A DNA stretch of 57,602 nucleotides from Candidatus Gastranaerophilales bacterium (GTDB taxonomy: Bacteria > Cyanobacteriota > Vampirovibrionia > Gastranaerophilales > Gastranaerophilaceae). Position 1 is the first letter of the stretch. Each line of letters starts with the position of its first letter. The stretch is taken from the NCBI GenBank assembly GCA_944325705.1, contig CALVBB010000013.1, positions 1-57,602 of the forward strand. The letters run 5' to 3'. Of this stretch, positions 56,143-57,602 are shown one piece after another. The position numbers and the translations under genes were made by a program. Below the pieces are notes generated by a model. It searched no databases. It was not told the origin of the DNA and saw only the letters and a program-made list of their open reading frames with translations.

Positions 56143-56647
56143 ATCCGTAAAGCTAAATATATTTAGTGAAAATATTTTTGAGAAGCTGGAAGTTAATGAA
56201 AAAAAGTTTATACAAATAGCAAAAAAGATTTTTAAATTTTACCTGACACTTCCTGAAATTTCCGAAAAATCCTGTCTTGCAGGTCTTGATTATAATACGG
56301 TATCGTTTGACTTTGTGTATTGCGACAGCGAAAAGACGCATGAAATTAACAGGGAATACCGGGATAAGGATTATCCTGCGGACATTATAACTTTTGCAAT
56401 ATTTGCGGACGCACAGCCGGAGGAAAGATTTATTTTTGACGGTGAAGTTAATCTCGGGGAAGTAATAATTGCGCTGGACAAGGTTCAGGAAGAAGCTGAA
56501 AAAAAGGATGTTACGTTTGATTATGAACTTTCATTTCTCATAAGCCATGGTATTTTGCATCTGCTTGGATTTGACCATCAGACAGAGGCAGATTATAATT
56601 TTGTTATAAGCGTGCAGAATAAGGCTTTGAGGAGTATCGTAGTATGA
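56132..56647 (+). CDS. ybeY: Endoribonuclease YbeY (16S rRNA maturation)
   Basis: A 171 aa zinc metalloprotein: ADIITFAIFAD, GEVNLGEVIIALDKV and the HGILHLLGFDHQT metal site (HxxxHxxxxxH). Involved in rRNA 3' end processing and ribosome quality control. I chose ATG at 56132, preceded by GAGGAAAAG, over an upstream in-frame ATG inside pgpH. The end overlaps dgkA by 4 bp (ATGA-type). Confidence 0.96.
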   Translation: MTPKSVKLNIFSENIFEKLEVNEKKFIQIAKKIFKFYLTLPEISEKSCLAGLDYNTVSFDFVYCDSEKTHEINREYRDKDYPADIITFAIFADAQPEERFIFDGEVNLGEVIIALDKVQEEAEKKDVTFDYELSFLISHGILHLLGFDHQTEADYNFVISVQNKALRSIVV

Positions 56648-57024
56648 GCAAGTTTAAATCGCAGGGTTTCAGGAATACTTTTAAGAATGCCAGAAAGGGA
56701 ATGCGTCTTGTCTTAAAGAGCGAACGGAATGTTCGTATTCATCTTGTAATGGCTGCATTTGTTCTTATGTTTGGCTTTTTACTTAATTTTAGTATTACAA
56801 AACTTTGTATTCTCCTAATTGCAATAGGAATGGTTGTATCGGCGGAGATGATTAATTCTGCGCTGGAATACTCCCTTGATGCTGTTTTTCATAACAGGTA
56901 TTCAAGACTTGTGGGGATGGCAAAGGATATTTCTGCCGGTGCTGTAATGTTTGTGACAATTATTGCTGTTGTTATAGGGCTTTTGATTTTTATTCCTCCG
57001 ATTTTCGGGCTGCTGTTTGGCTAG
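56644..57024 (+). CDS. dgkA: Undecaprenol/diacylglycerol kinase DgkA family
   Basis: A 126 aa membrane kinase with three helices. SERNVRIHLVMAAFV and the catalytic EMINSALEYSLDAVF are diagnostic. The Gram-positive-type enzyme phosphorylates undecaprenol; the E. coli type uses diacylglycerol. Last gene of the pgpH-ybeY-dgkA operon; hairpins follow. Confidence 0.94.
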   Translation: MSKFKSQGFRNTFKNARKGMRLVLKSERNVRIHLVMAAFVLMFGFLLNFSITKLCILLIAIGMVVSAEMINSALEYSLDAVFHNRYSRLVGMAKDISAGAVMFVTIIAVVIGLLIFIPPIFGLLFG

Positions 57025-57068: not shown

Positions 57069-57096
57069 TTCACGGACACGGTTCCGCTAACGTGAA
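57069..57096. repeat. Short hairpin after dgkA
   Basis: TTCACG (57069-57074) pairs with CGTGAA (57091-57096) around a 16-nt loop containing CACGGTTCCGCT, faintly like the loops of the two larger hairpins to the right. It begins 44 bp after the dgkA stop. It has no clean T-run, so it is a weak terminator candidate. Confidence 0.5.
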
Positions 57097-57126
57097 AGAT
57101 ATTCTAGAACATTTCAAATAAAATAA

Positions 57127-57182
57127 AAAACTTTTGTCGGGCACGCTCCCGCGCTGCTTCCGGTATCGCCACAAAAAGTTTT
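57127..57182. repeat. Hairpin with conserved 33-nt GC-rich loop, copy 1
   Basis: Arms AAAACTTTTGT (57127-57137) and ACAAAAAGTTTT (57171-57182) pair with one bulge. The loop, 57138-57170, is 33 nt and GC-rich (CACGCTCCCGCGCTGC within it). It matches the loop of copy 2 at 26 of 33 positions, although the stems are unrelated. Confidence 0.8.
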
Positions 57183-57192
57183 ATATTACAAC

Positions 57193-57221
57193 TTGAAAAG
57201 AAGCGGAAGATTTGATATAAT
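57193..57221 (+). promoter_or_regulatory. Promoter of the second poly-G leader gene
   Basis: TTGAAA (57193-57198), exactly 17 bp, TATAAT (57216-57221). The transcript should start near 57228, just before the 21-bp-stem hairpin, which therefore lies in the 5' UTR. Confidence 0.75.
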
Positions 57222-57232
57222 TAAAGTAAAGA

Positions 57233-57310
57233 GGACAATCTATAAATGTTTTCTCGAACACGCTGCCGCTCTGCTCCCGCTATCGTCTCGAAAACATTTA
57301 TAGATTGTCC
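57233..57310. repeat. Hairpin with conserved 33-nt GC-rich loop, copy 2 (21-bp perfect stem)
   Basis: Arms 57233-57253 (beginning GGACAATCTATAAATG) and 57290-57310 are exact complements over 21 bp. The loop segment 57255-57287 (CGAACACGCTGCCGCTCTGC at its start) is 79 percent identical to copy 1's loop. It sits between the promoter and the RBS of the poly-G gene. With the two other hairpins it fills the 328-bp gap 57025-57352. Confidence 0.88.
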
Positions 57311-57382
57311 AGAGAAAAGTAATAAAAGAAATAAATCAAAGGAGACTAAACAATGGAAAAACCAAGTATAGCAAGGATTTGC

Positions 57383-57393
57383 GGGGGGGGGGG
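57383..57393 (+). repeat. Homopolymer tract of 11 G in the second leader
   Basis: Same position in the leader (ten codons in), same length and same flanks (GCAA/GCAAG then TAGTTTAAGCTCCTTAACCG) as the tract at 40197-40207. Confidence 0.9.
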
Positions 57394-57496
57394 CAAGTAG
57401 TTTAAGCTCCTTAACCGGCACAGAGCCAGGGATACAGGCAGCCGAAGGGGGTAAAGCCTTAAGCTGGCGTGCATTTTTGCGGAAACTGATTGAAAT

Positions 57497-57583
57497 AAAA
57501 TCCCCCCTGCCCCATTTTATCAAAGGGGGTAATGGCAAAGACTTCCCTTGTAAGGGAGGCGGCGCGCAGCAGCGTAGGGTTTT
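57497..57583 (-). repeat. Dispersed repeat, second copy
   Basis: Reverse-orientation relative of 30315-30393; 57541-57583 matches 30315-30357 at 35 of 43 positions. Both end in a GGGGCAGGGGGG-type run (here read on the minus strand). It lies within the open frame of the second poly-G leader gene. Confidence 0.65.
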
Positions 57584-57602
57584 AATAAAAAATCCCCCTT
57601 TT

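Follow-up and report, generated by a model that had tools for sequence, protein, structure and literature searches.

A non-autonomous palindromic repeat family of one Gastranaerophilales family, probably remodelled by replication template switching

The hairpins at the end of a Gastranaerophilales contig are, with moderate confidence, members of a non-autonomous palindromic repeat family that is confined to one family of this order and is remodelled by replication template switching. Each copy has a conserved apex, which measures approximately 45 nt including the collar, on a stem of approximately 15–25 bp. The window referred to below is the whole stretch of DNA that was analysed, 57,602 nt in length; it forms contig 13 of a genome of 1.95 Mb.

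Hairpins at the contig end

The family is represented in the window by two large hairpins, which follow a diacylglycerol kinase gene (56644-57024) and a third, smaller hairpin, in the order small hairpin, class C copy, class B copy and contig end (Table 1). The genes upstream of the hairpins encode a 7TM-HD protein, YbeY and the diacylglycerol kinase.

Table 1. Features at the end of the window. Positions are those of the window.
Feature	Position	Strand	Details
Third, smaller hairpin	57069..57096	-	6-bp stem TTCACG/CGTGAA; 16-nt loop GACACGGTTCCGCTAA
Class C copy	57122..57187	-	stem 57122-57135/57174-57187; core conserved at 57142-57168; minus strand G-rich
Promoter-like TTGAAA-17-TATAAT	57193..57221	+	11/12 consensus matches; between the two copies
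Class B copy	57233..57310	-	perfect 21-bp stem, 57233-57253/57290-57310; core conserved at 57259-57285; minus strand G-rich
Leader ORF MEKPSIARIC	57353..57602	+	G11 run 57383-57393; cut by the contig end

The original prediction was of two adjacent hairpins with one loop and unrelated stems. The likeness of the loops was reproduced, with 26 of 33 positions identical between 57138-57170 and 57255-57287 in an ungapped alignment, and so was the self-complementarity of the arms, which is full in the class B copy and 93% in the class C copy. The stems do, however, have something in common, namely a loop-side collar (TTTT.TC on the left, C.AAAA on the right). Consequently, conservation does not end exactly where pairing starts, as had been supposed, and stem pairs 5–9 are nearly invariant across 148 copies.

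When folded as RNA, the hairpin at 57233-57310 has z-scores of -7.05 (plus strand) and -6.88 (minus strand). The AAAACTTTT-type hairpin alone folds more weakly, with z-scores of -1.67/-0.87 as RNA and -3.00/-2.99 as DNA. The smaller hairpin, which formed no part of the original prediction, was grouped with the two larger copies as a direct repeat by a repeat finder and gives six pairs on folding. Its loop appears to be a one-unit version of the family loop, and such a one-unit loop is also present in L120:3057.

Because a predicted promoter sits between the two copies, the class B hairpin would lie at the 5' end of a transcript, and the same promoter-like motif occurs upstream of other class B copies. 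Terminators were rejected as an explanation, as the stems are not followed by a T run and the hairpins hold no terminator-like site. Chance was likewise rejected: the loop consensus matches the window twice, against no match in 100 dinucleotide shuffles, and the loop core occurs at 52 places in the genome (at most three mismatches), against none in a reversed control.

Distribution and classes

Copies of the family are patchily distributed. Within the genus, 7 of 13 genomes carry a copy at no more than one mismatch, and the number per genome ranges from 0 to 51. At the family level, 14 of 191 genomes carry one (one mismatch) and, at the level of the order, 19 of 383 (two mismatches), all from one family and five genera; the six other families of the order (22 genomes) yielded no copy at two mismatches. 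All 69 stretches with the loop pattern in a public genome collection belong to Gastranaerophilales, apart from those of one uncultured bacterium (CASFGU); the latter agree in contig numbers and positions with copies in G012, a genome of the same genus. No description of the family was found in the open-access PMC literature searched. A phage or plasmid origin was discarded: the loop pattern has no exact match in IMG/VR, plasmids gave no match at all, and the only phage match is a short one to an AT-rich stretch outside the cores (query 108-140).

The outer stems fall into classes, each of which recurs elsewhere in the genome. The 51 distinct copies of the window's own genome comprise 20 with class A arms on both sides, 12 of class B, 8 of class C, and 11 that are mixed or other. 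Outer stems are alike within a class at unrelated loci, while inner arms are common to all classes. Thus, the assumption that the arms lie outside the repeat family was only partly borne out: the inner arms belong to the family as a whole, and the outer arms belong to it within a class and not beyond. In the mixed copies L022:1040 and L118:1200, the left arm is of class B and the right arm of class C, from which it follows that copies have recombined within the loop region.

Placement is mostly intergenic. Counting copies with an nhmmer score of at least 25 and a called gene on both sides, 57 lie between co-directional genes (G-rich strand sense in 24, antisense in 33), 25 between divergent genes and 21 between convergent genes, and the 57 show no orientation bias relative to their neighbours. 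Cis-regulation in a fixed orientation was rejected for want of such a bias. A further 38 copies, counted apart, lie within called ORFs, many of which are short and dubious.

Some placements recur in particular genomes. Class F copies of the CALURU genome (L059, L069, L071, L097, L101, L105, L110, L119 and L120) lie within ORFs of 129–372 codons, always with the C-rich strand sense and some in tandem at a spacing of approximately 210 bp. In the CANQML genome (L252:425 and L089:4505), a copy is located within or immediately ahead of an ORF that continues into a prepilin motif, again with the C-rich strand sense. G012 has two inverted copies 833 bp apart with only short ORFs between them. Several copies in the window's own genome are found no more than a few hundred bases from a contig end (for example, of C33, C36 and C13), so these repeats probably break the assembly.

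Fold and covariation

The arms pair in 148 of 164 parsed copies, and 16 lack a good stem; some copies are hybrids that combine arms from two classes. The expectation that the loop is always flanked by inverted repeats therefore describes most copies and not all. Across the 148, stem pairs 11–20 vary yet stay paired: outer stem positions 11–20 pair with their own partner in 88.4% of cases, against 57.0% when right arms are swapped within a geometry class, an excess that selection on the stem would also be expected to produce.

Covariation was assessed in 55 of 56 candidate class A copies (the hybrid L043 was left out), the 56 being those of class A geometry with distinct outer stems among 180 distinct copies. 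Standard pairs make up 95.2% against a shuffled mean of 85.9%, double changes number 99 against 32.2, and covariation is 0.258 against 0.101, with none of 500 shuffles as high. Related sequences may exceed shuffles in the absence of structure; in slid-alignment controls, which retain relatedness, pairing falls to 34–53%. Unaided, RNAalifold recovered the same structure at -25.5 kcal/mol, with two extra apical pairs and without the outermost pair.

The two strands differ in their predicted folding. As RNA, the mean fold energy is -24.2 kcal/mol for the G-rich strand and -16.2 kcal/mol for the C-rich strand, the former being lower in 147 of 148 copies; as DNA, the corresponding values are -13.5 and -10.4 kcal/mol, with the G-rich strand lower in all 148. 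The apex of the G-rich strand is modelled as tandem G-A mismatches (the two mismatched pairs by the collar), a 4-bp helix, and two GC-GNRA-GC mini-hairpins. GNRA accounts for 313 of 328 tetraloops: any of the four bases occurs at position 2, a purine at position 3 in 325 of 328 and A at position 4 in 327 of 328. The purine preference at position 3 relative to position 2 gives a Fisher p of 1.5e-6, uncorrected for shared ancestry. On the C-rich strand, 53 of the mismatches are A.C and 16 are G.T (binomial p 9e-6, for copies that are not independent), an excess of A.C that corresponds to G.U-type wobble on the G-rich strand. Together, this one-sided wobble and the GNRA preference suggest that selection acts on a single folded strand.

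These features could be those of a functional structured RNA or RNA binding site, in which a protein or RNA would be bound by the twin-GNRA apex while the stem is kept by compensatory mutation. The class A covariation, the structure found by RNAalifold, the freedom of tetraloop position 2 beside the purine at position 3, and a wobble confined to one strand all favour such an RNA. Several observations speak against it, however, and make it unlikely: copies lack an orientation preference relative to genes, their orientation flips between species, they are scattered so unevenly within one genus, and the window has no Rfam match above the gathering threshold, only weak ones at E values of 0.18 or more. 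A CsrA-type site is defined by GGA in the loop, and this candidate was rejected because GGA is not kept in the loops, where GTGA, GAGA and GGAA occur. Integron attC sites, which have conserved ends and a variable centre, were set aside too, since by description their pattern of conservation is the opposite of that seen here.

A related reading, which we consider distinctly doubtful, is a minimal mobile element of which the twin-GNRA apex alone is fixed, with the folded G-rich strand recognised by a host or parasite protein and the stem free. If true, such an element could turn around in place without loss of function.

Spread within larger repeats

Copies multiply at least partly within larger repeats, which for classes B and C is a prepilin leader and for part of class A a unit flanked by REPs. 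Similarity among recent copies in G006 extends past the hairpin, and copies of classes B and C sit in a leader that comprises a promoter-like site, a ribosome-binding site and a poly-G ORF, followed by prepilin-like genes; both observations imply that part of the spread is by larger repeats. Paralogues of the leader ORF enter prepilin-like genes given the right G-run length.

The leader ORF (MEKSSIARI...) also occurs at position 40167 of the window and at L024:1168, L026:1166, L158:15542 and L175:2828 (minus strand). Its G runs are mostly of 10–15 G, and the right length is needed to read into the prepilin-like gene (FTLAEVLITLGIIGVVAAM), which in L158 has a Pfam N_methyl match. The ORF is in frame in L158 and L175, and has one G too many at window position 40167 and in L019, L020, L024 and L026. 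Judged from these reading frames, the poly-G leader ORFs look like a phase-variable set.

Many class A copies in G000 and G012 have a REP-like motif, GTAGGTCGGATT, at approximately -68 or +84. The form GTAGGTCGGATTTA..TAATCCGAC is seen at approximately -68 or +84 of the class A hairpin core in, for example, L067, L073 and L090. Most copies outside class A have no REP-like motif nearby. REPs and REPINs, which are associated with RAYT, are short palindromic extragenic repeats without genes of their own, with a conserved stem and a GTAG tag at the foot of the hairpin. The present family shares their palindromic, extragenic and gene-less form, and part of class A adjoins REP-like motifs. Unlike them, it lacks a GTAG tag at the hairpin foot, its centre rather than its stem is conserved, and its copy number is not tracked by the presence of RAYT.

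It is quite improbable that a Y1 (HUH, RAYT-type) transposase moves the family as single-stranded DNA, using the hairpin as substrate. RAYT-like Y1_Tnp genes (Pfam PF01797) were found in 4 of 13 genomes of the genus and would agree with such movement, as would the REP-like motif near class A copies and the strand-specific fold. On the other hand, no Y1_Tnp match was found in the copy-rich genomes G000 (37 copies at no more than one mismatch) and G004 (16), one was found in G003, which has no copy, most copies outside class A lack a nearby REP, and the GTAG tag lies outside the hairpin. Retrotransposition by a resident reverse transcriptase was rejected, RVT_1 being missing from all five high-copy genomes of the genus and present in five of the other eight.

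Inversions between species

Copies were treated as orthologous when linked by both flanks (at least 80 nt aligned per side and 69% identity, with a single copy in the gap, among fetched loci). Of 28 loci common to at least two genomes, seven carry the element inverted in at least one pair. Inversion was found at four of nine loci compared between G006 and G007, and at none of 15 between G000 and G012 (Fisher p 0.012). Among 55 other hairpins in the fetched loci, 10 comparisons were usable and none was inverted; the difference from the family (Fisher p 0.067, for pairs that are not independent) comes from too few cases to set the family apart.

Clear in-place flips of the inner stem and loop within a kept outer stem are seen at loci 2 and 4 only. 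At locus 2, G006 and G007 have flanks that are 98% identical, outer stems that are the same but for single bases, and a loop core that is the same but for one base, with the loop reversed; the asymmetric inner arms (T4/T5) have swapped sides together with the loop. At locus 4, the reversal takes in the loop and inner collar, and the outer A/G asymmetry is unmoved, which places the breakpoint inside the stem. Both outer arms at this locus also differ between species in concert (ACCTGTTG vs CCCTATTG). Since outer stems or loop subtypes differ in addition to the inversion at loci 1, 3, 5, 6 and 7, replacement by another copy is possible there.

A site-specific DNA switch, in which a recombinase acting on the paired arms would invert the enclosed segment, could produce the two in-place inversions and perhaps the inverted orientation at the five further loci. 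It is nevertheless very improbable, given that the breakpoint at locus 4 falls within the stem, between two asymmetric positions, and that the arms differ between loci and so provide no fixed recombinase site.

Template switching as the probable remodelling agent

Replication template switching between the arms of a settled palindrome would account for both kinds of change. One arm would rewrite the other, letting the stem drift in sequence without losing its pairing, and whatever lies between the switch points could be copied in reverse, so that the loop flips. Two signatures of this process can be looked for. Arm homogenization is seen in the excess of own-arm pairing and in the concerted arms of locus 4; spacer inversion with breakpoints in the arms is seen at loci 2 and 4. 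We infer that template switching, rather than selection alone or a recombinase, is the agent. The lack of any flip among the 15 loci shared by G000 and G012 counts against it. Template switching alone predicts neither the wobble bias nor the GNRA pattern, and selection of some kind for the folded G-rich strand is therefore likely, whether ongoing or at the time of spread.

In yeast, template switching homogenizes arms and inverts spacers, the reported inversions having spacers of 2–5 bp (PMC8604942). It has also been proposed to create and mend RNA stems (PMC8794818). Plastid hairpins have flip-flop loops of 4–24 bp (PMC6824564). The flipped part here, at approximately 40 bp or more, is longer than either the yeast spacers or the plastid loops, a difference that speaks against the reading.

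The persistence of the palindromes may have a genetic basis. SbcD is part of a nuclease that removes long palindromes. No SbcD match (TIGR00619) exceeded the cut-off in any of the 13 genomes of the genus, compared with 8 of 14 controls; weak partial matches below the cut-off were present in 3 of the 13, none of them a high-copy carrier. A missing SbcCD may thus let such palindromes persist.

Element-free sites

Sites lacking the element bear on its origin. Locus 1 (a GGDEF-like gene, named by eye, and its neighbour) carries the element in five genomes and lacks it in eight; locus 2 (L050) carries it in six and lacks it in six, with one genome giving no match. The element-free sites of both loci hold a short bare spacer with neither a hairpin nor a single arm, and their flanks, at approximately 70–85% identity, are too diverged to define exact ends or a target duplication.

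The original prediction had offered three interpretations: insertion into hairpin loops, insertion that duplicates a flank in inverted order, and a protein or RNA that requires the loop together with any stem. The first two are suggested by outer stems that vary among loci around a constant apex, yet they are highly improbable, because the bare spacers (eight relatives at locus 1 and six at locus 2) show neither a pre-existing hairpin nor a single arm, and stems of one class are alike at unrelated loci, so that the arms travel with the element; the divergence of the flanks keeps this evidence from being final. The third interpretation fits best of the three, given the 148 paired stems and the GNRA-like constraints on the loop strand.

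Relation to known systems and implications

Small palindromic mobile repeats are dispersed, mostly intergenic, non-coding and patchy between related species, and the present family is all of these. It differs from such repeats in having no definable terminal repeats or target duplication. As regards the terminal inverted repeats and target-site duplication of MITEs, the copies are palindromic, and the empty sites are too diverged to define their ends. It is a new family within a known kind, distinguished by an unusual conserved apex and by repeated template-switch signatures across species.

Template-switched short inverted repeats (PMC8604942 and PMC8794818) show the same arm homogenization with concerted multi-base arm changes, and the same spacer inversion with switch points inside the arms. 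Unlike the yeast cases with their much shorter spacers, this is a repeat family with a conserved spacer of approximately 40 nt that is inverted at several loci between bacterial species. The plastid small inversions (PMC6824564) likewise have a loop that lies either way between conserved arms in related species; those loops are single-copy, whereas here the repeat family is dispersed.

Template switching at hairpins has mostly been inferred from single loci, and here many orthologous copies are available in several bacterial species. As the family shows both signatures, concerted arms and flipped centres, it becomes possible to measure rates, switch points and the contribution of absent cruciform nucleases. 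The family also cautions that compensatory changes are not by themselves proof of a functional RNA, and the GNRA pattern and wobble asymmetry raise the question of both forces acting together. In this way, the palindrome family documents, in nature, the copying errors that arise at DNA hairpins.
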